The notes under the pieces: model-generated
What the model saw: the letters and a program-made list of their open reading frames with translations, nothing else
The model's database searches: none
Told to the model about the DNA's origin: nothing
In this document: positions 1 through 12,711 of the stretch, piece by piece
Layout: the number at the start of each line of letters is the position of its first letter
How positions within the stretch are numbered: position 1 is the stretch's first letter
Position numbers and translations under genes: made by a program
Source: Acidobacteriota bacterium
Lineage (GTDB): Bacteria; Acidobacteriota; UBA6911
NCBI GenBank assembly: GCA_016934555.1
Contig: JAFGSS010000080.1
Span: 1 to 38,001 of the forward strand
Direction: 5' to 3'
DNA length: 38,001 bases

Positions 1-2
1 AC

Positions 3-71
3 CACGGCGACAAGGATTACCGCAAAATCGTCGATGACATTCTGGAACAGCAGGCCAAGGAGTCGGACTGA
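3..71 (+). CDS. 3' end of an unidentified gene (partial)
   Basis: An open frame enters from the left edge and ends at TGA 69-71. Only 22 residues are visible, charged and probably helical, ending in KESD. The stop overlaps the start of the PIN gene (TGATG), so the two are almost certainly co-transcribed and translationally coupled. Too little remains to name a family. In a PIN/Fic neighbourhood it could be an antitoxin-like or restriction-associated protein, but the sequence does not show this. Confidence 0.6.
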   Translation, partial: HGDKDYRKIVDDILEQQAKESD

Positions 72-694
72 TGGCGATCAACTACACTGTGCAGGCCGAG
101 GTGGTCGACATCTCTGCGGACGCTCCGAGGGCCGAGGATGTGTTTCTGGTGGACACCAATGTCTGGTATTGGCTGACCTATTCCAGGGCCAGTCAGAGCG
201 CACGCCCACCAGCTTATTACCAGACTTCCAATTACCCCAATTACACTAACACCGCTCTCGGCGCTGGTGCGCGAATTTTCCAATCGGGGCTGAGTCTTGC
301 TGAACTGACTCATCTGATTGAGAAAGCCGAACGAGAAATCTACGAAGCCACCAACGGCCAGATCGGCACCAAGGAATATCGCCATAATCTTCCTGCCGAA
401 AGGGCGCAAGTATTTGCAGAGGTTCAGGCTGCCTGCGGGCTCGTTACAACACTGGCTGAGCCCCTAACCGTCACAATCGATTCACCCACAGCCACGTCCG
501 CTCTGAACCGGTTGCAATCTGAAAGGGTCGACGGCTACGATCTATTCATTCTCGAATCCATGCGAAGCCATGGCGTGGTCCAGGTCATTACCGATGACGG
601 CGACTTCGCCACCGTACCCGGTATTCAGGTTTTCACCGCCAACCGCAATGTTATCCAGGCAGCCCGCGCCCAAGGGAGGTTGATCACCCGATGA
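71..694 (+). CDS. PIN-domain protein (putative ribonuclease)
   Basis: A 207-residue protein with the acidic residues expected of a PIN nuclease. D28 lies in VDTNVW after the first strand, E78 in [10 protein letters not shown]157 in VDGYDLFIL and D175 in [11 protein letters not shown] domains are metal-dependent RNases, often the toxin of type II toxin-antitoxin pairs, though this one is longer than VapC toxins (about 130 residues). Residues 36-70 and 90-140 look like insertions. The start overlaps the stop of the preceding gene (TGATG) and the end overlaps the fic start by 4 nt (ATGA), so it sits in a compact operon. Codon use is more AT-tolerant than in the core genes to the right, which suggests acquisition. 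The fold call is good; the substrate and any antitoxin are unknown. Confidence 0.72.
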
Positions 695-1740
695 CCTCCT
701 CATTCCAGCCCCAGTTCACCATCACCAACCGCATGACCCAGGCCATCACCCGCATCGAGCGGGCGCGTGGCTTTCTCGAGGCGGCGCAGCTTTCCGCCGA
801 TTGGGTGCGCGAGCTGGGCGAGCAGGCGCTGATCCGGGAGGCGCACCACACCACTCACATCGAGGGCACCCGGCTGACCCTGGACCAGGCCGAGCGGCTG
901 TGGAAGGGTGAAACGGTTCCGGAGGCCGATCCGGACGATGCGCGGGAGCTGCTCAACTACCGCACCGCCTTCGAGTTTGTTTCCGAATGCCTGGACAGCG
1001 GCGACCCGATCACCGAAGGGATGATCCGCGAGATGCACCGCAAGCTGGTCGAAGGCGTGCGTGGTGGCAGCGCCGCGCCGGGGGAGTATCGGCGTATCCA
1101 GAACTATGTGGTCAACTCCGGCACCGGCCAAGTCATCTACACCCCGCCCACGGCGGTGGAGGTGCCGGTGATGATGTCGGAGTTGGTCAAGTGGCTGAAC
1201 GCTGACCTTGATATCCATCCAGTGATGGTGAGCGGCATCGCCCAGTTCCAGCTGGTGCTTATTCATCCGTTTCTGGACGGCAACGGCCGCGCTTCACGTC
1301 TGCTCTCAACCCTCTGCCTTTACAAGGCCGGGTACGATTTTAAGCGGCTGTTCACCATCAGCGAATACTACGACCGCGACCGGCCGACGTTTTACAAGTC
1401 GATCCAGAGCGTGCGCGACAACGGCATGGACATGACCGACTGGCTCGACTATTTCGTCACCGGCCTGGAAACCCAGATGGTCGAGGTGCGCGAGCGCAGC
1501 GAGCAGGTCATCCGCCGCGATGTGCTGATGAAACAGCACGCACTGAACGAGCGCCAGAGCAAGGCGTTGGGCTATCTCCTCCAGCACGGCAAACTGACCA
1601 TCCAGAATTTTGAAGCGCTCTGCCCGACCGTCAACCGCCGCAGCCTGCAGAGGGACCTGAAGGGGATGCTGGACAAGAATCTGATCGTTGAAGTTGGTGC
1701 GGGAGCGACCGACCCGACGCGCCATTACACATTGGCTTAG
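691..1740 (+). CDS. Fic family protein (AMPylase-type, self-inhibited class)
   Basis: A 349-residue Fic protein. The catalytic signature [12 protein letters not shown] starts at H192 and is complete, so nucleotidyl (typically AMP) transfer to a target hydroxyl is expected. An N-terminal inhibitory motif of the form (S/T)xxxE(G/N) is present at T54 to G59 (TTHIEG). This places it in the class where the inhibitory helix precedes the Fic core. Residues about 285-349 look like a winged-helix DNA-binding tail, common in chromosomal Fic regulators that may control their own expression. The start overlaps the PIN gene by 4 nt. A repeat tract follows its stop. The target is unknown. It is distinct from the decayed Fic gene at 4414. 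Confidence 0.93.
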
Positions 1741-1795
1741 CTATGACAAGCTGTGACACCGAGCTGTGACAAAACTATGACAAAAGCTGCGACAT
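1741..1795 (+). repeat. Five degenerate CTRYGACA repeats after fic
   Basis: The octamer CTRYGACA occurs at 1741, 1751, 1764, 1775 and 1788, at spacings of 10-13 nt, immediately after the fic stop. It could be a regulator-binding array or the relic of a coding linker, because repeated Val-Thr type linkers are common in Fic and related regulators. Neither reading is proven. Confidence 0.6.
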
Positions 1796-1836
1796 CTTGG
1801 GGGCTGACTTGGGGGGTGACTTGGGGGGTGACTTGG
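1796..1836 (+). repeat. 12-bp tandem repeat, about 3.4 copies
   Basis: The unit CTTGGGGGGTGA is repeated at 1796 (one mismatch, GGC for GGG), 1808 and 1820, with a partial copy at 1832. The period of 12 keeps reading frame, and one frame reads as repeated Thr-Trp-Gly-Val. It lies 38 nt before the helicase start, where changes in copy number could alter the leader length. Confidence 0.8.
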
Positions 1837-1850
1837 AAACCATGGTTTCC
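1835..1850. repeat. 16-bp perfect palindrome upstream of the helicase gene
   Basis: GGAAACCATGGTTTCC is a perfect palindrome, extendable to TTGG/CCAA with a one-base bulge. It sits 23 nt before the start codon of the primase-helicase gene. This suits a dimeric repressor site, possibly for the winged-helix tail of the upstream Fic protein (inference). Confidence 0.6.
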
Positions 1851-1873
1851 CAACGACATGCTGATGGCGGAGT

Positions 1874-4258
1874 ATGGATTTACCGAAGAGTGACAAGAGC
1901 CTGAATAAAAGGGACGAACTCCGGCGGCTACGCGAGGAGATCACCCGCCTCAGGGCATTGCTGACCCAGCGCGGCATAGATTGGGAAGAACCGACCGCTC
2001 CTTCCCCCGTTCCCGCCATGGCGGAACCGGCTTCAGGCCCAATCCATCTCAGCATCGACGATAAAATCGCCCTGTTCCGCCGGCTGTTCCGGGGACGGGA
2101 GGACGTCTACCCCCAGCGCTGGGAGTCGGCCAAAGGCACCTCAGGCTATTCCCCGGCCTGCGGTAACGAGTGGAAACCTGGCGTTTGTCATAAACCCCGG
2201 GTGAAATGCGGCGACTGCCACCAGCGGCAGCTGCTGCCGGTAACCGATCAGGTAATCTATGACCACCTGGCAGGGAAACAAACCATCGGCGTCTACCCGC
2301 TCCTCCGCGATAACAACTGCCATTTTCTCGCGGTGGACTTCGATGGAGCCGACTGGCGGGAGGACGCCGGGGCCTACATGCAATCCTGCCGGGAACTCGG
2401 CATTCCGGCGGCGCTGGAAATTTCCCGCTCCGGCAATGGAGCACATACCTGGATCTTTTTTATCGATCCGGTCCCGGCCCGTGAAGCCCGGCAGCTCGGG
2501 ACCGCACTGATCAGTCATACCTGCGACCGGACCCGGCAATTGTCCCTGGCCAGCTACGACCGCCTGTTTCCCAACCAGGACACCATGGCCAAGGGGGGCT
2601 TCGGCAACCTGATCGCGCTCCCCTTGCAGAAACAGCCGAGGGAATCGGGGCGCAGCGTGTTCGTCGATGAGGGGTTGCAACCTTATCCAGACCAGTGGGC
2701 CTTTCTGGCATCCATCCGCGCGCTGTCCCGGCGGGATCTGGAAGACACCATCCTGCGGGCCAGCAGAGGTCACCACCCCCTGGATGTAGCCTTTGCAGCC
2801 GATGAGGACGACAGCAAGCCATGGCAGCGGCCATCACCTGTACCCGTCCGGATTGCCGGTCCGCTGCCGCGGTCGCTAGCCCTGGTGCTGGCCAACCAGA
2901 TTTTCATAGCCAAGGCCGATCTGCCGCAACCGTTGGGCAACCGCCTGATCCGGCTCGCCGCCTTCCAGAATCCGGAGTTTTACAGGGCCCAGGCCATGCG
3001 CCTGCCGGTGTGGAACAAGCCGCGCATCATCGGCTGCGCCGACAACTACGCCCGGCATATCGGTCTGCCCCGTGGCTGCCTCGATGCCGTACTCGACCTG
3101 TTGGAGGAGAACGACATCCGTCCAGATCTGCTGGACGAGCGCTTGCCCGGACGAAAAGTGGCGGTCAGATTCACCGGCTCCTTGCGCCAGGACCAGAAAG
3201 CGGCGGTTCGCGAGATGCTCAAGCATGACATTGGTGTCCTCAGCGCCCCGACGGCCTTTGGCAAGACGATCGCAGCCGCAGCCCTGATTGCCCGGCGTAA
3301 AGTGAGCACCCTGGTGCTGGTGCATCGTACCGAACTGCTGCGCCAGTGGCGGGAACGATTGACCGGGTTCCTGGAAATCCCCAAGGGCGGACTGGGCGTG
3401 ATCGGCGGCGGCAGGAAAAAGCCGTCCGGCAGGATCGACATCGCTGTCATGCAGTCGCTCTCCCGGCGGGAGGATCTGGGCGAATTGCTGGATCAGTACG
3501 GACAGGTCATCGTCGACGAATGCCACCACCTGTCGGCGTTTTCGTTCGAGCGGATACTCAAGCAGGCCAGGGGAAAGTTTGTGGTGGGTTTGACCGCCAC
3601 CCCGATACGGCGCGACGGTCATCAGCCGATCATCTTCATGCAGTGCGGACCGATCCGCCACATCGCGGATCGATCCGAAACCGCCCCCTCCAGGCTGGAG
3701 GTCTGGCCAAAAGCGCTGCCCGCGCCGGAAATCCCCCCGGATTCGCCGATCCAGAGTGTGTTCCGCATCCTCGCGGGCGATGCGATCCGAAACCGGCGCA
3801 TCGCCGCGGATGTGCTGGCCGCCTACCGCGAAGGGCGGAAGGTACTGGTGCTCACCGAGCGAACAGATCATCTGGCACTGTTGCGGGATGCGATGGGAAT
3901 GGGGGCAGAACACTGCTTCATCCTGCATGGCCGTCTGTCGAGGAAGCAGCGGACAGCCATATTCGCCGAACTGGAGGCATTGGACAAGGCGGCACCCAGG
4001 GTCTTGCTGGCCACTGGCCGCCTGATCGGTGAAGGTTTCGACCATCCGCCCCTCGATACTTTGGTGCTGGCCATGCCGATTTCATGGAAAGGAACCTTGC
4101 AGCAATACGCCGGACGCCTGCACCGTGAGCATACCGATAAGCGGGATGTGCGGGTATACGACTATGCCGAGGTCGATCACCCCCAGCTTGCCCGCATGTG
4201 GGATAAGCGCCAGCGCGGCTACCGGGCTATGGGGTATGACATCCGACCGATGCCGTGA
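1874..4258 (+). CDS. AEP primase (TOTE-type)-SF2 helicase fusion
   Basis: A 794-residue two-part protein. Residues 8-35 form a short coiled coil. Residues about 58-290 resemble the archaeo-eukaryotic primase domain described in TOTE conflict systems, with a cysteine cluster (C96, C105, C112, C115), the metal-binding pair D155/D157 in VDFDG, and H191 in NGAHTWIF. Residues about 430-790 are an SF2 helicase: Walker A APTAFGKT (458-465), DECH (548-551), TAT (574-576) and motif VI QYAGRLHR (744-751). All key residues seem intact, so it should be active as an ATP-dependent nucleic-acid motor with primase/polymerase-like chemistry. Defence or mobile-element conflict is the role proposed for the family; the exact activity here is unknown. 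No good ribosome-binding site precedes the ATG. Confidence 0.85.
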   Translation: MDLPKSDKSLNKRDELRRLREEITRLRALLTQRGIDWEEPTAPSPVPAMAEPASGPIHLSIDDKIALFRRLFRGREDVYPQRWESAKGTSGYSPACGNEWKPGVCHKPRVKCGDCHQRQLLPVTDQVIYDHLAGKQTIGVYPLLRDNNCHFLAVDFDGADWREDAGAYMQSCRELGIPAALEISRSGNGAHTWIFFIDPVPAREARQLGTALISHTCDRTRQLSLASYDRLFPNQDTMAKGGFGNLIALPLQKQPRESGRSVFVDEGLQPYPDQWAFLASIRALSRRDLEDTILRASRGHHPLDVAFAADEDDSKPWQRPSPVPVRIAGPLPRSLALVLANQIFIAKADLPQPLGNRLIRLAAFQNPEFYRAQAMRLPVWNKPRIIGCADNYARHIGLPRGCLDAVLDLLEENDIRPDLLDERLPGRKVAVRFTGSLRQDQKAAVREMLKHDIGVLSAPTAFGKTIAAAALIARRKVSTLVLVHRTELLRQWRERLTGFLEIPKGGLGVIGGGRKKPSGRIDIAVMQSLSRREDLGELLDQYGQVIVDECHHLSAFSFERILKQARGKFVVGLTATPIRRDGHQPIIFMQCGPIRHIADRSETAPSRLEVWPKALPAPEIPPDSPIQSVFRILAGDAIRNRRIAADVLAAYREGRKVLVLTERTDHLALLRDAMGMGAEHCFILHGRLSRKQRTAIFAELEALDKAAPRVLLATGRLIGEGFDHPPLDTLVLAMPISWKGTLQQYAGRLHREHTDKRDVRVYDYAEVDHPQLARMWDKRQRGYRAMGYDIRPMP

Positions 4259-4263
4259 TTTTA

Positions 4264-4304
4264 CGAAAAGGTACCAACATGAAACAGGACAGCCGGCCTT
4301 TTCG
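4264..4304. repeat. Inverted repeat after the helicase stop
   Basis: CGAAAAGG (4264-4271) is repeated inverted as CCTTTTCG (4297-4304) with a 25-nt spacer, starting 5 nt after the helicase stop codon. It may be a weak terminator, since no U-run follows. A 41-codon open frame (4279-4404) spans it, but that has no recognisable product and I do not call it a gene. Confidence 0.35.
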
Positions 4305-4413
4305 GGTTCGCCGCTCCATTTCCGATCGGGGCCGCCGGACCGGCACGAGTCGGATGGTGACGAAGCCGGGATTGTGCGGTTCGATTGGGTGTAAATGGGC
4401 GTAATATTGGTTC

Positions 4414-4650
4414 ATGCTGCAAACCGAGACTATCCGGATCACCCCAGTGATCCCCAGCCTCACCGCCATGATTGATGAGTATAGGAGCTCCTGGCTCACA
4501 TTGCGCCACCCGGATCAAAGGCGGCAGGCTGTCCGACCAGGAAGTGGAGCGGTCGCTCTCGAATCCTGAGATCAAGTCGTTTGGCTCCCGCGACAAGCAG
4601 GAGGTGGCCAGCTACGCCAAACGATGGGCCCGGTATTCACCTCCTGGTCG
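4414..4650 (+). pseudogene. Decayed second Fic-family gene (5' fragment)
   Basis: The ATG at 4414 opens with MLQTETIRITP, the usual N-terminus of a common Fic subfamily, but the frame stops at 4569. A shifted frame carries RIKGGRLSDQEVERSLSN and then FGSRDKQEVASYA (about 4511-4610). These match the inhibitory-helix region (normally RIEGSxLSDxEVE) and the following helix of that subfamily. A third frame at 4624-4647 gives GPVFTSW, where family members read VxxSW-like sequence. At least two frameshifts, an internal deletion and an E-to-K change in the inhibitory motif are therefore visible. The catalytic HPFxxGNGR half is absent. About 100 bases up to the kinase stop show nothing recognisable and probably contain the island/core junction. 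Confidence 0.75.
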
Positions 4651-4752
4651 GTCTACTCGTTCGGCAATGTCAACGCAGGGGGAACCCCGCGCGATATCGC
4701 AAAGTGGCCCCGGGCGGCGAACCGGAAGCCGAAAGAATCAGTGGGCATCCGG

Positions 4753-7233
4753 TCAGACTGTCCAGGCGCCTTCGGGACCGGCCAGCGCCTGATGCACCCC
4801 GGCGGCCAGGTCCTTCATCGAAAAGGGCTTTTGCAGAAACGGGGAGGGCGGGGCCGCGGGGGCGCCCGGAACGGCATCGGCGGAGTGGCCGGACATGAAG
4901 AGGACCTTCAGCCCCGGGTGCCGGGCCCTGAGCGCCCGGGCCAGGTCGCGGCCGTTCATCCCGGGCATCACCATGTCGGTGATCGCGAGGTCGATGGCGC
5001 CAACGTGGGCGTCGGCCGTCGCCGTCGCCTCGGCGGGGGAAGCCGCCTCGAGCACCCGGTAACCGAGCTTCTCGAGCATGCGGCGCGTCATCCTGCGGAC
5101 CGAGGCATCATCCTCGACCAGGAGCAGGGTTTCGCCCCGCCCCGCGGGGGTCTCCACCGGCTCCCCGGCCGGTTGCGTATCGGGCGCCGCAGCGTGCCGG
5201 GGGAGATAGACCCGCAGAGTCGTCCCCTTCCCCTTTTCGCTCTGGACATGGACATACCCGCCGTTCTGCTTGACGATGCCGTAGACGGTGGCCAGGCCCA
5301 GCCCCGTGCCCCTGCCCACCTCCTTGGTGGAGAAGAAGGGCTCGAAAAGATGTTCGAGCGTTTCGGCGTCCATGCCGCAGCCGTCGTCGCTGACCGACAT
5401 GAGGACATACTCGCCCGCCGTCATGCCTTCGTGCCCGGCGGCGAAGGTTTGGTCGACAACGGCGTTTTCGGTTTCGATGACGATCCGCCCGACGTCGGCG
5501 ATGGCGTCGCGCGCGTTGACGCAGAGGTTGACCAGGACCTGGTTCAACTGCCCCGGGTCGATCCTGACCGGCCAGAGCCCCCCGGCCGGGACCCACTCCA
5601 GCCGGATCTGCTCCCCGATCAGGCGCCGCAGCATGTTGAGGCTTGCTTCCACCGCGCCGTCCAGGTCCAGGCTTTTGGGGCTCATCGGCTGGACGCGGGC
5701 GAAGGCCAGCAACTGCCGGGTGATCTCAGCGGAATGACCCGCCGCCTTCAGGATTTCGCCGAAGCATTCCTCGAGCGGACCACCCGGCTCCACCTGCTCC
5801 ATGCCCATCTCCGCGTACCCCACGATCACGCCGAGCATGTTGTTGTAATCGTGCGCTACTCCCCCCGCCAGCCTTCCGACCGCCTCCATCTTCTGGGCCT
5901 GGCGGAGGTGGCTTTCGAGCCGGCGGCGCTCGGTGATATCGTGGACGATGGCATGGAGCAGCATCCGCCCCTGGATCTCGATGCCGCTGCCGAAGACGGC
6001 GACGTCCCGCACTGAGCCGTCGGCCAGCCGGTGGCGGGATTCGAAGTGCATCCGCTCCCGATCCCGGGCCTTGTCCATTTCCTCCCGGATCCGGTCGGGG
6101 GACAGGGTGCTGATCTCCCCGATCCTCATCCCGCAGAGACGGGCCCCGGTCCACCCGTAAAACCGCTCGGCCGCCCGGTTGGCTTCGACGATGGCGCCGT
6201 CGGCGGGATCGATGAGGAGCTTCACCGCCGAATGGTTATGGAAGAGATCCCGGAATTTGGCCTCGCTGTCGCGCAGTTTTTCGTTGCTCTCGGCCAGGTG
6301 CCGCGTCCGGGTGCGCAGCTGCCGGCGGAAGAGCAACAGCAGCGAGAGCGCCGCCGCCAGGAGGGCGGCGATGCCCCCCAGGACCCAGGGGATGTACCGG
6401 GGGACGACGACCCGGGGAGGCCGCTCCATCCACCGCTCGAGCGCCCGGTAGTAGGCCGACCGGGGCTCCGCCTTCATCCTCCGCAGGTTCCGGTCGATCG
6501 CCTCGAGCAGGTCGCCGCCCGCCCCGGCGCGGGCGGCGTAGTAGAGCGACACCGGGTGGAAAACGATCGGAGTCTTTTCCAGCTGGTACCGCCCGTGGTA
6601 ATAGTCGCCGAAGTACTGGTTCGACGCGACCGCGTCGGCGTCCCCCCTGCTGGCCAGGCCATACGCTTCGCCGAAGGAATCCGCCTCGATGAACGCGGCC
6701 TGGAAACCGAAACCTTTCAGCAGCCGCTCGAGCGCTGTCTTCTGGACGGAGCCGGAGAGCACGGCGATGCGCCGGCCGTCCAGGTCGGGAATGCTTCGGA
6801 TGCGGGCGCCCTTACGGGCGTAGAGGGTCGACCAGCTGCTGAGGACCTCCTCGCGGTGGAAGTCGAACTCCCTCTCCCGCTCGTCCGAGATGGCGACGTC
6901 GGGCATGAGGTCGATGCGTCCCTCCCGCAGCTGCTCGAGGCACCGGTCCCAGTCGCAGCCGACCGCGACGAGGTTCCACCCCTCCCGTTCCGCTATCGCC
7001 TCGAGGACCTCGCCGAAGATACCCGCGCCCCTTCCCGCGTCATCGGTGTAGATCTTCGGCCGGTTCTCGTAGACGCCGAAACGCACCCGTCGCTTCCCGG
7101 CTTCTCCCCGCTCCGCGCTCGCCGGCTTCGGCCCGCGCTCCATCGCGCGGCCCGCCTGGCCCCGGCAGATGCCGGCGCCACCGGCAGCCAGCACAAGCAG
7201 CGCGATCAGCAGGAGGATTCTCTTCATTTCCAT
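4753..7233 (-). CDS. Hybrid sensor histidine kinase with periplasmic substrate-binding sensor
   Basis: An 826-residue membrane kinase. A signal sequence (residues 3-25) leads to a periplasmic family-3 solute-binding-like domain (about 47-270) and one membrane span (281-302). Then come a PAS domain (about 322-436), a HisKA domain with phospho-acceptor H461 (VAHDYNNML), an ATPase domain with N-box NLCVNARDA (569-577) and GTGLGL (642-647), and a receiver domain (702-815) with D753 and K802. The binding domain probably senses a small molecule such as an amino acid, and phosphate passes to the attached receiver. No HPt or separate output regulator is adjacent. Translation may start at the second Met (codon 3). 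It is convergent with the accessory island and divergent from the antiporter. Confidence 0.92.
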   Translation of the reverse strand: MEMKRILLLIALLVLAAGGAGICRGQAGRAMERGPKPASAERGEAGKRRVRFGVYENRPKIYTDDAGRGAGIFGEVLEAIAEREGWNLVAVGCDWDRCLEQLREGRIDLMPDVAISDEREREFDFHREEVLSSWSTLYARKGARIRSIPDLDGRRIAVLSGSVQKTALERLLKGFGFQAAFIEADSFGEAYGLASRGDADAVASNQYFGDYYHGRYQLEKTPIVFHPVSLYYAARAGAGGDLLEAIDRNLRRMKAEPRSAYYRALERWMERPPRVVVPRYIPWVLGGIAALLAAALSLLLLFRRQLRTRTRHLAESNEKLRDSEAKFRDLFHNHSAVKLLIDPADGAIVEANRAAERFYGWTGARLCGMRIGEISTLSPDRIREEMDKARDRERMHFESRHRLADGSVRDVAVFGSGIEIQGRMLLHAIVHDITERRRLESHLRQAQKMEAVGRLAGGVAHDYNNMLGVIVGYAEMGMEQVEPGGPLEECFGEILKAAGHSAEITRQLLAFARVQPMSPKSLDLDGAVEASLNMLRRLIGEQIRLEWVPAGGLWPVRIDPGQLNQVLVNLCVNARDAIADVGRIVIETENAVVDQTFAAGHEGMTAGEYVLMSVSDDGCGMDAETLEHLFEPFFSTKEVGRGTGLGLATVYGIVKQNGGYVHVQSEKGKGTTLRVYLPRHAAAPDTQPAGEPVETPAGRGETLLLVEDDASVRRMTRRMLEKLGYRVLEAASPAEATATADAHVGAIDLAITDMVMPGMNGRDLARALRARHPGLKVLFMSGHSADAVPGAPAAPPSPFLQKPFSMKDLAAGVHQALAGPEGAWTV

Positions 7234-7303
7234 GAGTCACCCGTTCCGGCCGGCGGCCGGATGTCGCACCATCGAGTCCGGCGACTGCGGCGCATTGCGA
7301 CAG

Positions 7304-7318
7304 CTTTTATCATAAAAG
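7304..7318 (-). promoter_or_regulatory. Palindromic -10 region of the sensor kinase promoter
   Basis: CTTTTAT-C-ATAAAAG is a perfect 15-nt palindrome. On the minus strand it contains TATGAT (7314 to 7309), a good -10 hexamer 76 nt before the kinase start. No clear -35 is seen. The symmetry could also be an operator overlapping the promoter. Confidence 0.45.
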
Positions 7319-7397
7319 GAGCCCGGACGGAAATGCCGAATAGTCGCTGCTGGGGTTGGCGACCCGATCCGCGCATGAAAGGCGGGGTGGATTGGGG

Positions 7398-7403
7398 TAT
7401 GAT
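7398..7403 (+). promoter_or_regulatory. -10 element of the antiporter gene
   Basis: TATGAT, 27 nt before the antiporter ATG. A GGGGAG ribosome-binding site lies at 7422-7427, very close to the start. No convincing -35 is present at the right spacing. Confidence 0.4.
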
Positions 7404-7429
7404 GTAATTTTTTAGGCCCTTGGGGAGCT

Positions 7430-8401
7430 ATGCTGATCGCGATTGTGGCCATTGTCGTGGGGCTGGGGCTGCTGGTCTGGAGCGCGGACTGGTTCGTGGA
7501 AGGGGCGGCGGCGCTGGCTCGCCACTTCGGGCTGCCGGCGCTTTTGATCGGGATGGTGATCGTGGGGTTCGGCACCTCGGCGCCGGAGATGGTGGTGTCG
7601 GCCATCGCCTCGATGGAGGGGAACCCCGGGATCGCACTCGGGAACGCCTACGGCTCCAACATCGCCAACATCGCCCTCATCCTGGGGCTGACGGCGCTGG
7701 TCAGCCCGATCGCGGTCCATTCGAGCGTCCTGCGGCGCGAACTCCCGGTTCTGGCCGCCGTCACCGGGCTTGCGGCCTGGCAGGTCTGGGACGGGAACAT
7801 CACCCGGCTGGACGCGGCCGTGCTGCTTCTGGTCTTCGGCGCCCTGATGGCCTGGTCGATCCGGGAGGGGCTGCAGCAGAAGACCGACGACTTCGGGAAC
7901 GAAATGGAGCGGGAGCTCGGAATCCACCCCATGCCCCCCCGCCGGGCGGCCTTTCGCCTCCTCGCGGGCCTCGTGGTGCTGATCGCGAGTTCCCGGGCGC
8001 TGGTCTGGGGGGCCGTGGAGGTCGCTCGCGGCTTCGGGATCAGCGACCTCGTCATCGGGCTCACCGTCGTCGCCGTGGGCACCTCCCTGCCGGAACTGGC
8101 GTCGTCGCTCGCCGCCGCGCGCCGCAACGAACACGACATCGCGCTCGGCAACGTCATCGGCTCGAACCTGTTCAACACCCTGGCCGTGGTCGGCATCGCC
8201 GGGGCGATCCACCCCGTCGCGGCCGCGCCCGAGGTCTTCTCCCGCGACATCCTGGCGATGTCGGTCCTGACCGTGTCGCTCTTCGTCATGGGGTACGGGT
8301 TCTGGAGCCCGCGCCGCATCAACCGCTGGGAGGGGAGCCTGCTGCTCATCGCCTACATCGCCTACAATACCTGGCTGCTCCGCGGCGCTTTCGCCGGCTG
8401 A
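7430..8401 (+). CDS. Calcium/sodium antiporter (CaCA family, YrbG-like)
   Basis: A 323-residue inner-membrane exchanger of about ten hydrophobic segments, the normal size for the bacterial YrbG/CaxA type. The two inverted alpha-repeats that form the ion sites are intact: GFGTSAPEMVVS near residue 48 and AVGTSLPELASS near residue 222, each followed by a GNxxGSNxxN motif (GNAYGSNIAN, GNVIGSNLFN). It exchanges Ca2+ (or a related cation) for Na+ or H+. The gene stands alone on this strand. Its last 40 bases overlap the 3' end of the oppositely oriented glycosyltransferase gene, so the two mRNAs are antisense to each other at their ends. Confidence 0.93.
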   Translation: MLIAIVAIVVGLGLLVWSADWFVEGAAALARHFGLPALLIGMVIVGFGTSAPEMVVSAIASMEGNPGIALGNAYGSNIANIALILGLTALVSPIAVHSSVLRRELPVLAAVTGLAAWQVWDGNITRLDAAVLLLVFGALMAWSIREGLQQKTDDFGNEMERELGIHPMPPRRAAFRLLAGLVVLIASSRALVWGAVEVARGFGISDLVIGLTVVAVGTSLPELASSLAAARRNEHDIALGNVIGSNLFNTLAVVGIAGAIHPVAAAPEVFSRDILAMSVLTVSLFVMGYGFWSPRRINRWEGSLLLIAYIAYNTWLLRGAFAG

Positions 8402-9327
8402 TTCCCTATCGCCTCGAGGACGGCGTCGACGGTGATGTCTTCCAGGCGGCCGGACCCCTCCCGGAGGACCGTCACGCTCTCTCCGAGCGGGGCCCACTGT
8501 TCGGGCGCCGTAGGCCCGAAAAGGGCAACGGTCGGAACCCCCAGCGCGGCGGCGAGATGGGTCACCCCCGAATCGTTCCCGACAAAAAACCGGCAGCGCC
8601 CGAGGACTCCCGCCAGCGGCCCGAGCGGGAGTCCCACGCACGGCAGGCACGCGGCGGCCGGCAGCGACGCGGCGACTCCCAGCGCCAGCCCCTCCTCCGC
8701 CGGGCCCTCCATGAGGATGAGCCCGAGGTCGTTCCGACATGCCAGGCGGCGGGCCAACCCGATGAAATTTCCGGGGGGCCAGCGCTTCCCGGGCGATCCG
8801 GCACCGGGGTGCAGCATCCCGAGCGCCCCCTGCCCCTCCCACCCCTGCTCCCGGAGCCACCGTCCCCCTTCTTCCAGGGAGGCGCCGTCGGGGTGGATGC
8901 GCACGGCCGGCGGGGCCTCCGTCGGCTCCGGCCCGAGGCTCAGGGAATCGATGAAGAGGCGCGAGACGTGGCGCGCCTCCCCCGGCGCCGGGCGCCAGGG
9001 GGCGATGCGCGCATCGGGGTGAATGGAGCGCAGGTTGCGGACGAAATCGTCGTTGGCGGCGCCGGTCCAGGAGACGACCCGGTCATAGCTCTCCCAGAAA
9101 CGGATGTCCGGCTCCGTCGGCGGGTCGGGACCGTGGAGGCGGTGGAGCGGGAACGCGGAAAGGGGGAGGACCCTGTCCGCGTACGCCGTCAGCATCGGGC
9201 CCGGCAAAGCGGGGGCGCACGCCAGGGTGATCCCGGCCCCCGGCTCCGCCCGGCGGAGGGCCCCCAGCGCCGGGAGCGCCAAAAGGACGTCCCCCAGGGC
9301 GCCGGGGTGAAGGACCAGGGTGCGCAC
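8362..9327 (-). CDS. Glycosyltransferase family 9 (heptosyltransferase-like)
   Basis: A 321-residue GT-B enzyme. HPGALGDVLLALPAL at the N-terminus and FVGNDSGVTHLAAALGVP near residue 245 are the hallmark motifs of ADP-heptose:LPS heptosyltransferases (GT9). It probably adds a sugar to lipopolysaccharide core or another surface glycan at the cytoplasmic face of the inner membrane; the exact donor cannot be read. It starts at GTG 9327, which shares one base with the mrp stop (TAGTG), so it is translationally coupled and is the last gene of the sucC-sucD-mrp operon. Its 3' end overlaps the antiporter gene by 40 nt. Confidence 0.9.
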   Translation of the reverse strand: MRTLVLHPGALGDVLLALPALGALRRAEPGAGITLACAPALPGPMLTAYADRVLPLSAFPLHRLHGPDPPTEPDIRFWESYDRVVSWTGAANDDFVRNLRSIHPDARIAPWRPAPGEARHVSRLFIDSLSLGPEPTEAPPAVRIHPDGASLEEGGRWLREQGWEGQGALGMLHPGAGSPGKRWPPGNFIGLARRLACRNDLGLILMEGPAEEGLALGVAASLPAAACLPCVGLPLGPLAGVLGRCRFFVGNDSGVTHLAAALGVPTVALFGPTAPEQWAPLGESVTVLREGSGRLEDITVDAVLEAIGNQPAKAPRSSQVL

Positions 9328-10409
9328 TACTCGATGACGACCCCGACGCTATGGGAGTTGGCGATGCTCACCTGTGCAGCCACCTGCTGGGCGATCTGCC
9401 GGAAAGCCTCGCCGACGGCCGAATCGGGGGCCAGGGCCGTCACCGGCTTGCCCGCGTCCCCCCCTTCGCGCAGGGAGACATCGAGCGGCACCTCCCCGAG
9501 AAAGGGGACCCCGTAACGGGAGGCCGTGGCCGCCCCCCCTCCGTGGCTGAAGATGGGGGTCCGCTCGCCGCATTTGGGGCACTGGAAATAGGACATGTTC
9601 TCCACGATCCCCAGGATTTCCACGTGCACCTGGCGGAACATCGCGATCGCCTTGCGCGCGTCCTGCAGCGCCACGTCCTGCGGCGTGCTGACGATCACGG
9701 CCCCCATCAGGGGAACCGTCTGGGTGAGGCTGAGCTGGACGTCGCCCGTTCCCGGGGGAAGGTCGACGAGAAGGTAGTCCAGCTCCCCCCAGTCCACCTG
9801 GCGGATGAACTGCTGGATCACGCTGTGAAGCATCGGCCCGCGCCAGATCAGGGGCTGGTCGTCACGGTCGGTCAAAAAGCCCATCGACATCACCCGCACG
9901 CCGTAGTTCGACAAAGTCTGGATGCGGTCCCCTGCCGCCCGGGGCCGCCCGTCGATCCCCATCATCAGGGGAACGTTCGGCCCGTAGATGTCGGCGTCGA
10001 GGATCCCGACCGCGGCCCCCGTCTGCGCCAGCGCCACGGCGATATTCACGGTCACGGTGGACTTGCCGACCCCCCCCTTGCCGCTCCCCACGGCGACGAT
10101 GTTTTTGACGCCGGGGACGGACTGTTTCCCCTCCCCCGCGGTCCCCCGGGTCACGGCCGCCGACATCGTGATCCGGACGTCGCTCACGCCGGGAACCGCG
10201 AGCACCGCCTCGCGCGCCCACCGCTCCATCTCGTTCTTGACCGGGCAGGCGGGGGTGGTCAGTTCGATCGTAAAGGACACGACGCCGGCGTCGATCTCGA
10301 GGTTCTTGATGAAATTCAGGGCGACGATGTCCTTGTGGAGATCGGGGTCCTCGACCTTTTTGAGGGCATCCAGAATATCCTGCTCACGGGGCGCTGCATC
10401 ATTCGACAT
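9327..10409 (-). CDS. mrp: Mrp/NBP35-family Fe-S cluster carrier ATPase
   Basis: A 360-residue scaffold/carrier that holds a 4Fe-4S cluster at a dimer interface and delivers it to apoproteins in the cytoplasm. Residues about 8-85 are a MIP18/DUF59 domain. A deviant Walker A GSGKGGVGKST follows, then DADIYGPNVP, and a CPKC pair that binds the cluster. The frame stays open far upstream, but the ATG at 10409 (MSNDAAPREQ) matches the family's N-terminus. It lies 62 nt after sucD in the same direction. The sucCD-mrp-GT9 grouping has no obvious shared pathway. Confidence 0.93.
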   Translation of the reverse strand: MSNDAAPREQDILDALKKVEDPDLHKDIVALNFIKNLEIDAGVVSFTIELTTPACPVKNEMERWAREAVLAVPGVSDVRITMSAAVTRGTAGEGKQSVPGVKNIVAVGSGKGGVGKSTVTVNIAVALAQTGAAVGILDADIYGPNVPLMMGIDGRPRAAGDRIQTLSNYGVRVMSMGFLTDRDDQPLIWRGPMLHSVIQQFIRQVDWGELDYLLVDLPPGTGDVQLSLTQTVPLMGAVIVSTPQDVALQDARKAIAMFRQVHVEILGIVENMSYFQCPKCGERTPIFSHGGGAATASRYGVPFLGEVPLDVSLREGGDAGKPVTALAPDSAVGEAFRQIAQQVAAQVSIANSHSVGVVIE

Positions 10410-10471
10410 GTCAAAATCCTTTTGAAAAAATGTGTAGGGTTGGATCGACCGGCGGACCCCGGCCGAAAGGG

Positions 10472-11347
10472 TCAAATCGGGTTGAGGAGCTTCTCCATCG
10501 CTTCGCCGATATCGGCGGGGCTCGACACCACGCGCACGCCCGACCGCTCGAGCGCTTCCATCTTTTCGGCAGCGGTCCCCTTCCCCCCCGAAATGATCGC
10601 GCCCGCATGCCCCATGCGTCTTCCCGGAGGGGCCGTCCGGCCCGCGATGAAACCGACGACGGGCTTTGTCATGTTCTCCTTGATATACCGTGCAGCCTCC
10701 TCCTCCGCCGTCCCCCCGATTTCGCCCACCATCACGACGGCGTGCGTGTCGGGATCCCGTTCGAACAGCTCGAGCGCATCCACGAAGCGGGTGCCGATGA
10801 CGGGGTCCCCTCCGATGCCGATGCAGGTGGACTGCCCGATGCCCCGCATCGACAGCTGATGCACCGCCTCGTAGGTCAGCGTCCCGCTGCGCGAAATGAC
10901 ACCCACGTGCCCTTCCCGGAAAATCCGGCCCGGCATGATCCCCGCCTTGCATTTCCCGGGCGAGATCACGCCGGGGCAGTTGGGCCCGATCAGGCGTGTG
11001 GCCGAGCCCTCCACCAGCCCCATGACCCGGGCCATGTCCTGGGTCGGGATCCCCTCGGTAATGCAGATGATCAGGCCGACGCCCGCCGCGGCCGCCTCCA
11101 GGATGGCGTCGGCCCCGTGCGCGGCGGGGACGAAAATCAGCGTCGCCGTCGCCCCTTCCTGCTTCACCGCCTCCTCGACGGTGTGGAAAACGGGGATGCC
11201 GTCGAGCAGGGTGCCCCCCTTGCCGGGCGTGACCCCCGCGACGACGTTCGTGCCGTACTCGACGCACTGCCGCGCGTGAAAGGAGCCTTCCCGGCCGGTG
11301 ATCCCCTGAATGGCCAGACGTGTGCCGCCGTCGATCAGAATCGTCAC
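10472..11347 (-). CDS. sucD: Succinyl-CoA synthetase alpha subunit
   Basis: A 291-residue subunit of the TCA-cycle enzyme that converts succinyl-CoA, ADP/GDP and phosphate to succinate, CoA and ATP/GTP. The CoA-binding Rossmann segment [12 protein letters not shown] opens the protein, and the phosphorylated active-site histidine is in [10 protein letters not shown]. The length is standard. The GTG start overlaps the sucC stop by 4 nt (GTGA), consistent with coupled 1:1 synthesis of the two subunits. Confidence 0.97.
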
Positions 11348-12516
11348 TGGACCCCCTCCCGTCGCGCCAGGGCGACCGCCTTTTCCGCCGCGTCCCTCAT
11401 CCCGTCGGCGACCGTAAACTCGAAATCGGACTCGAGGAGCAGGCGCCGCCCCTCATCCACGTTGGTCCCCTCGAGCCGGACGACGACCGGAACCTTCACC
11501 CCGGCATCCCGGACGGCACCGATGACCCCGTGCGCCACGATGTCGCAACGCACGATCCCGCCGAAGATGTTGAGCAGAACAACCCTGACCTTGTCGTCGG
11601 AAAGCAGGATCCCGAAGGCGTTCCGGATCTGGTCCGCCGTCGCCCCGCCGCCGACATCGAGAAAATTGGCGGGGCTCCCCCCGGCGATCTTGATGATGTC
11701 CATCGTCGCCATGGCCAGGCCGGCCCCGTTGACCATGCACCCGATATTGCCGTCGAGGCGGATATAGTTGATTCCCAGGCGGGAGGCCCGGATTTCAAGA
11801 GGGTCCTCCTCGCTGAAATCGCGCAGGGCCCGGAGCTCCGGGTGGCGGTAGAGCGCGTTGTCGTCGAGGACGATCTTGGCGTCCAGGGCGTACACTTCGT
11901 CCGACCCGGTCACCAGCAGCGGGTTGATTTCCACCAGCGAGGCGTCGATCTGCTCGAACACGCGGTAGAGCGCCGCGATGACGCGGGTGGCCGCCGGCAG
12001 CAGACCGTCCTCCAGCCCCAGGCGGAAGGCGAGTTTTCTCAAAGCGTAGGGCTGCAGCCCGACGCGGGGGTCGACAGGCTCCCGGAAGATCAGCTCGGGC
12101 GTTTCCGCGGCGACCTTCTCGATATCCATCCCGCCCGACGGGGAGGCCACGATGACGGGGCACCGGGTCTCGCGGTCGACCAGGATTCCGAGATAGAATT
12201 CCTTCCGGATCGAGAGCGCCTCTTCGACGAGCACCCGCCGCACGATGCGCCCGCCGCTCCCGGTCTGCCGGGTCACCAGCGCGGTGCCCAGCATCCCGCC
12301 GGCGATCTCCTCGGCCTCCGACGGGGTGTCCGCCAGCCGGATTCCTCCCCCCTTGCCCCTGCCGCCCGCATGGATCTGAGCCTTGACCGCCACCCTGCCG
12401 CCCAGGCGCGCCGCGATCTCGTAGGCTTCGTACGGATTCGAGGCGGCTTCCCCCCGCGGGACCGGCACCCCGAACCGTGCCAGTATCTGCTTGGCCTGAT
12501 ATTCGTGAACGTTCAC
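11344..12516 (-). CDS. sucC: Succinyl-CoA synthetase beta subunit
   Basis: A 390-residue ATP-grasp subunit that binds nucleotide and succinate. The N-terminus [11 protein letters not shown] and the segment LEINPLL-like VEINPLLV are family-typical, as is [13 protein letters not shown] near the end. I choose the GTG at 12516 because a GGGAGGT ribosome-binding site lies 5 nt upstream and the next residues match the family start. An upstream ATG (12537) would add only seven atypical residues. It is first in the operon sucC-sucD-mrp-GT9, with a promoter about 100 nt upstream. Confidence 0.96.
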
Positions 12517-12615
12517 CGGACCTCCCGTCCCCCGCAAACCCCGTTGGGGCCTGGCGGGATCCTTTGTTTATGCAGAGAATTGCCGGAATCCTCGGGCCCA
12601 TCCGCCAATCGGCTC

Positions 12616-12644
12616 ATTGTATGGCGAAGGTCGTAAGGGTTCAA
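12616..12644 (-). promoter_or_regulatory. Promoter of the sucC-sucD-mrp-GT9 operon
   Basis: Read on the minus strand, TTGAAC (12644-12639), a 17-nt spacer and TACAAT (12621-12616) form a good sigma-70-type promoter. It gives a leader of about 90 nt before sucC. Confidence 0.6.
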
Positions 12645-12683
12645 TGAAAACCTTCCCGCCGCCCGGGGAGCGCAAACAGGCCT

Positions 12684-12711
12684 TTGATCGGGGACGCGGA
12701 TCGGCTAGAAT
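12684..12711 (+). promoter_or_regulatory. Promoter of the FHA/SpoIIE phosphatase gene
   Basis: TTGATC (12684-12689), a 16-nt spacer and TAGAAT (12706-12711) are followed about 105 nt later by the gene's start. It is divergent from the sucC promoter, about 40 nt apart. The rest of the 12538-12816 gap shows nothing further. Confidence 0.5.

Follow-up and report, generated by a model that had tools for sequence, protein, structure and literature searches.

What does an archaeo-eukaryotic primase (AEP) joined to a helicase do in a bacterial genome, and does it work for the cell or for the mobile DNA that may carry it? This question is raised by a primase-helicase gene (PH) near the left end of the window, by which we mean the whole contig of 38,001 bases that was analysed; the left context ends 1.9 kb before PH. 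The gene and the parts of its product are:

1874..4258, plus strand: PH, 794 aa, with ATG start, stop codon included and no internal stop
1895..1969, plus strand: N-terminal helix, aa 8-32, probably a coiled coil (AlphaFold2 secondary structure)
2060..2746, plus strand: AEP-TOTE primase domain, aa 63-291 (Pfam PF22548, E 2.5e-103)
2159..2218, plus strand: four-cysteine cluster C96, C105, C112, C115, putatively zinc-binding (kept in 75/75 relatives with the domain)
2336..2344, plus strand: motif A DxD, D155 and D157 (75/75; phmmer aligns it with YDID in MpCAPP)
2444..2446, plus strand: motif B histidine H191 (75/75 relatives)
2666..2668, plus strand: motif-C-like D265 in FVDE (68/75 relatives)
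2870..3163, plus strand: middle domain, about aa 333-430, likened to the XPB N-terminal domain (VIA-align against XPBII 6p4f_C)
3164..4234, plus strand: SF2 helicase core, aa 431-787, with Walker A at 3245-3268 and DECH at 3515-3526 (Pfam ResIII and Helicase_C; fold)

PH is an intact fusion, in a single chain, of an AEP-TOTE primase domain followed by an SF2 helicase. The initial annotation had proposed such a fusion with the AEP at residues 58-290, and the profile search on which this call depended gave the match: PF22548 scores 345.1 bits against a curated cut-off of 27, DNA_primase_S is found at aa 160-265 (E 2.5e-8), and the same 794-aa chain contains ResIII (aa 436-579, E 2.8e-24) and Helicase_C (aa 650-751, E 1.3e-7). 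The PADLOC PrimPol model PDLC01465 covers aa 21-364 (E 1.1e-109), and the AEP-TOTE match is the single one in the assembly. The start at 1874 was retained over the start at 2018, which was given by the home-made gene caller used on the loci (it also overlooked the PIN gene of the window), because the start and the overlap with the upstream reading frame match those of relatives.

Conservation of the motifs was counted in 76 aligned rows, 75 of which have the AEP domain; the exception is one of two rows from locus L033, a helicase without AEP. The primase-type metal site that had been proposed (DFDG and H191) was borne out by the invariance of D155, D157 and H191, while the glycine of DFDG (aa 155-158) is not conserved among relatives. 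H191 lies within SGNGAH, and S184 is kept in all 75 rows with the AEP domain. The four-cysteine cluster, also predicted beforehand, is equally invariant. At position 265, where the window protein has D, we counted 68 D, 5 N and 2 G among the 75 relatives, a variation that argues against the third acidic residue being strictly conserved. The window protein itself has all three marks of the AEP superfamily, i.e. the motif A DxD, the motif B histidine and the motif C acidic residue. In the helicase part, the motifs are APTAFGKT (Walker A, 458-465), DECH (548-551), TATP (574-577) and GRLHR (747-751), and seven residues, namely the Walker A lysine K464, D548, E549, H551, Q744, R748 and R751, are identical in 76/76 rows, in agreement with the earlier statement that the helicase motifs are conserved. 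Judged by its sequence, the enzyme looks functional; it would be expected to bind metal at the AEP site and zinc at the cysteine cluster.

An AlphaFold2 model built from 55 sequences (mean pLDDT 83.6, pTM 0.73) was compared with known structures, and this comparison bears on the helicase side. T4 UvsW is the top PDB match (Foldseek, E 1.6e-20), together with XPB/TFIIH chains, in a list filled by the helicase part. With VIA-align, residues 333-781 of the model were placed on residues 0-435 of XPBII 6p4f_C (Z 30.1, rmsd 4.0, 385 aligned), and Z reached up to 34.5 for other XPB chains. According to the model, the helicase is thus of the XPB/UvsW type including an XPB-like N-terminal domain, and aa 333-794 are like XPB, T4 UvsW and RadD in fold and motifs. 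Unlike PH, these SF2 helicases have no primase domain. ATP-dependent unwinding or translocation is a putative activity of PH. XPB, UvsW and RadD act in repair or recombination, and PH could accordingly be thought of as a host enzyme of DNA-damage tolerance or repair that is mobile only incidentally and mends, for example, forks or breaks, also those arising from restriction neighbours. We consider this unlikely: a core repair role predicts steadier retention, but the presence of PH is patchy: of nine genus-mates, G005 has a copy at 97% that is full-length, and the remainder have a weaker, partial or no match.

On the primase side, MpCAPP (7nqf/7nqd) is the sole significant PDB match of the AEP stretch (phmmer, E 2.5e-13); the cysteine module of PH did not align with it. 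According to the accessible text of PMC8211822, the double mutation D177A + D179A abolished DNA synthesis by MpCAPP. From the phmmer alignment we read D177/D179 as the DxD that would correspond to D155/D157 of PH, and PH presumably has priming activity, i.e. it would synthesize primers. The initial view that the chemistry of the family is hardly characterised has to be softened in so far as this relative was characterised in vitro (PMC8211822, accessible text) and the chemistry is not wholly unknown; for PH itself and for the function of its family, we found no assay in the open-licence literature, of which PMC12458937, in its accessible part, mentions TOTE. The accessible text of PMC8211822 further says that non-CRISPR CAPPs, which occur in mobile elements, most often consist of an AEP followed by a helicase. 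PH shares with CAPP the AEP homology, the conserved DxD and histidine and the AEP-helicase layout (CAPP_A; same source), while MpCAPP bears TPRs where PH bears the helicase. Of the two features of a CAPP, PH has the AEP relatedness to MpCAPP, and the CRISPR-Cas neighbourhood was not found: there is no Cas1 match in the assembly, and the same search was positive in 9/14 control genomes. The replicase GP55 of phage 1706 also has AEP and helicase in one chain; as far as PMC12205980 is accessible, it consists of AEP, an SF3 helicase and an added family B polymerase (PolB), in contrast to the SF2 helicase of PH. Other AEP families are treated in the accessible part of PMC5862659. The architecture and the family of PH are already named and widespread.

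The initial annotation assigned the family to conflict systems. As a name this stands: the whole length of the Pfam domain AEP-TOTE (PF22548) is common to PH and the proteins of this family, and the RefSeq name of the E. coli homologue, which is 60% identical to PH over 779 aligned positions, is 'TOTE conflict system archaeo-eukaryotic primase domain-containing protein'. These labels would suit a strict reading, in which PH acts as effector in a TOTE conflict system, TOTE standing for TPR, OB, TBP and Effector (accessible text of PMC12458937, citing Aravind, Iyer et al. 2022). However, the core partner genes were not seen at PH. TPR-OB and TBP genes are not adjacent to it in the contig, which begins 1.9 kb to the left; the neighbours are PIN, Fic and histidine kinase genes. 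TBP (PF00352) has no Pfam match in the assembly, although a diverged TBP could escape this search, which was positive in 4 archaeal controls; and TPR, CSD and TBP families are absent from the 25 commonest neighbour families of relatives, both upstream (of 107 families) and downstream (of 133). We therefore give hardly any credence to a strict-sense TOTE system here, and for PH the conflict-system label is one of family name.

The word 'intact' in the initial annotation holds for the enzyme, not for a partner gene, c2, which overlaps the PH start in other genomes and is a stub in the window:

1855..1893, plus strand: c2 stub, consisting of the final 12 codons (DMLMAEYGFTEE) plus stop and running into the PH start (intact c2 overlaps alike in other loci)

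A scan of genome contigs yielded 338 relatives of PH, of which 80 were kept as loci. In 18/80 of them c2 (about 183 aa) lies directly upstream of PH, mostly with an overlap of about 19 nt with the PH start, and in 62/80 no c2 is detectable. Homologues of c2 overlap PH on three plasmids, from Azotobacter, Cupriavidus and Massilia. The window, G005 and locus L006 retain no more of c2 than its last codons, which read DMLMAEYGFTEE or DMLMAEYGFAEE and are followed by a stop; owing to the overlap of the two genes, the start codon of PH was spared. The c2 protein is predicted to be all-helical, and a fold search of the PDB gave no hit with E at or below 0.001. DUF6155 matches it at E 0.02, below the family cut-off, and tblastn reaches genes labelled DUF6155, which makes for a weak link between c2 and this family.

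The loss of all but 12 codons of c2 in both the window and G005 could mean that PH is a relic whose partner was deleted and which no longer works as a system. This is very unlikely in our opinion, since PH is still constrained (window versus G005: dN 0.012, dS 0.048, ratio 0.245), most loci have no detectable c2 at all, and the E. coli loci examined have other genes upstream. The whole-gene dN/dS is even lower, 0.11-0.15, against the more distant relatives at L003, L006, L010 and L027; in the sixth comparison, with E. coli, dS is saturated. PH is under purifying selection.

The distribution of PH is wide. Some match to it was found in 36/60 related genomes, many of them helicase-only, and the AEP-TOTE family proper occurs in 25/99 genomes of the phylum (24 above cut-off). 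In a tree of 72 of the 76 aligned rows, the nearest rows to the window PH are from Pseudomonadota and Thermodesulfobacteriota, and the phylum labels need 32 changes against a minimum of 13, a figure that, as the tool warns, is not proof of transfer. PH matches were found in 347 plasmid records, 91 of them with one place covering at least 80% of the query. The 60%-identical, full-length homologue has at least a partial match in 868 of 5,426 complete E. coli genomes, 681 of them at a coverage of at least 80%, and 892 of the 898 match places are chromosomal. Phage records matching PH number 1,617, none of which covers at least 80% of the query, and the matches listed (30 of the 1,617 records) all lie from residue 333 on, on the helicase side only. 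Patchy and cross-phylum as it is, this spread indicates that the PH gene is horizontally mobile.

In the window, PH is surrounded by the following features:

71..694, plus strand: PIN-domain gene, 207 aa, with a 4-nt overlap with Fic (Pfam PIN, E 1.3e-6)
691..1740, plus strand: Fic/DOC family gene, 349 aa (Pfam Fic, E 1.9e-16, and Fic_N; PADLOC SoFic, E 4.9e-65)
1741..1794, plus strand: repeat array in the Fic-PH spacer, made up of five degenerate copies with GACA at the end (arrays counted against shuffled sequence)
4753-7233, minus strand: hybrid histidine kinase gene with solute-binding, PAS and receiver domains (Pfam), convergent to PH and to its right

The TTHIEG stretch of the Fic protein resembles the inhibitory motif found in Fic proteins of class II. 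Within the genus, the histidine kinase gene has numerous partial matches at the DNA level. The base composition marks off the left end: GC3 is 0.752 in PH, while 29 other genes called in the window average 0.867 (sd 0.037), and GC is 0.61 in positions 1-4258 and 0.664 elsewhere in the window, the shift stopping near the 3' end of PH. This difference in GC3, together with the defence-type neighbours of relatives, supports the accessory island that had been proposed from the sequence. Likewise, the remark that PH is not next to replication genes proved correct for the window neighbours scanned (PIN, Fic, histidine kinase and exchanger), none of which is a replication gene.

The neighbours of relatives were counted in 59 of the 80 loci, 21 loci of 9 kb or less being left out. 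Type I restriction, Fic, RhuM or AbiEii was found in 31/59 PH loci versus 0/40 control stretches; this control is narrow, as only two complete genomes, both from the phylum of the window, supplied its 40 stretches of 18 kb, and many genomes supplied the PH loci. By family, there were HsdM in 9, HsdR in 8, HsdS in 9 and any type I restriction in 14 loci, Fic in 15, RhuM in 6, AbiEii in 8 and AAA_14/DUF4143 in 7. When Pfam families were tallied for at most two genes per side of at least 70 aa (128 and 124 genes), AbiEii and Fic headed the upstream side with 8 each of 128 genes, and RhuM had 6. In E. coli, the PH gene of the chromosomal elements viewed lies directly after a Gp2/YfjJ-like gene, and in CP4-57 of K-12 abpB and abpA, the latter annotated as anti-bacteriophage protein, come right after yfjJ. 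Both the company of these families and the shared E. coli slot speak for a role in defence. This reading is weakened by the variability of the neighbours, since 28/59 long loci are without any tested defence family and the downstream tally contains many housekeeping genes, as well as by the narrow control and the variable acidic residue of motif C. It is also weakened by the many relatives on plasmids and satellites, where roles in replication or transfer are equally natural. AbpB of K-12 was considered as a PH homologue and rejected (best E 0.006 over 29 residues); the likeness is one of slot only.

The relatives on plasmids and satellites lead to the main alternative, namely that PH serves its own carrier as an enzyme of re-priming, fork restart or complementary-strand synthesis in the replication, transfer or repair of a plasmid, an ICE or a P4-like satellite. 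PH is indeed present on plasmids and satellite-like elements. Three of the four E. coli elements viewed have the order helix-turn-helix (AlpA-type) regulator, YfjI (DUF3987), Gp2, PH, and the fourth (O104:H4) has a Gp2-like gene before PH and the DUF3987 gene elsewhere. Furthermore, one rhizobial copy is near conjugation genes, and the non-CRISPR helicase-type CAPPs are described from mobile elements (PMC8211822, accessible text). On the other hand, PH often lies alongside restriction and toxin-like genes in the chromosomal loci examined, and the neighbours scanned in the window include no replication gene. We regard this alternative as a realistic possibility of lesser weight; conflict with mobile DNA, placed ahead of it, is our best bet for PH, at about an even chance.

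With this same balanced confidence, we propose that PH, an enzyme of the AEP-TOTE or helicase-type CAPP kind that moves horizontally and resides in islands, processes DNA in the conflict between the cell and mobile DNA. In this conflict, PH would load on branched, forked or damaged DNA; its helicase would translocate or remodel the junction with ATP, and the AEP domain would start or extend DNA strands on the exposed single strand. As an accessory of a defence island, it would target DNA that invades or has been cut by restriction, and would do so by itself, as in the window, or together with the all-helical, DUF6155-like c2. It is tempting to go further and to place PH at the centre of a module against mobile elements that has not been described before. 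This module, in many cases a two-gene operon of PH and c2, would travel as exchangeable cargo of P4-like satellites and type I restriction loci, and would block invaders by XPB-type remodelling of forks or restriction-cut ends coupled to unscheduled de novo DNA synthesis. This extended proposal is tentative and rather doubtful, but if true, it would be a polymerase-based instead of a nuclease-based mode of defence. A primase working in defence would be unusual. The family is common, as the E. coli counts illustrate, and strongly conserved, and the E. coli homologue makes the functional question directly accessible in a laboratory strain.

Two arrangements were noted among the neighbours of relatives. 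In L045 (2832-3818), a RhuM-type part and a Fic domain are present in one protein. In L058, L059 and L060, AbiEii, PH and an SNF2-type helicase (about 816 aa) form a tightly spaced run, with AbiEi ahead in L059 and L060; this run is possibly an extended variant of the system.

Finally, the site directly before PH deserves attention. In G005 (locus L090), the counterpart of window positions 1756-12685 is 94% identical, and the upstream order is PIN, the first part of Fic only, AAA ATPase, a 176-aa protein, RNA ligase and PH, with HsdM further out. Positions 13687-14122 of L090 correspond to window positions 467-907, so that the 3' part of PIN and the first part of Fic alone remain there. Given this difference in upstream gene order between G005 and the window, the site directly before PH has been exchanged between close relatives. 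An empty site was not available for comparison, and within the genus the full flanking stretch of kinase and exchanger was found in G005 only. The GACA-ending arrays number 13 in the loci examined, compared to a mean of 0.2 in shuffled sequence. Each is made of degenerate repeats, three to five in number and some 10-12 bases long, and most lie in the spacer that separates a Fic or RhuM gene from the PH module behind it; apart from the window, they are present at L006, L007, L008, L009, L010 (two), L012, L022, L029, L067, L076 and L090, and in L022 the array follows Fic without PH behind it. A reading of the arrays as recombination sites found no support: a 21-base consensus is absent from 297 genomes of the phylum, and the two matches in viral contigs fall in coding sequence. 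The AAA_15/DUF3696 ATPase with the 176-aa protein (no clear Pfam match) is found upstream of PH in L090 (11000-13638), L014, L047 and L051, is joined by the RNA ligase in 3/4 of these loci, and may form a separate defence unit.
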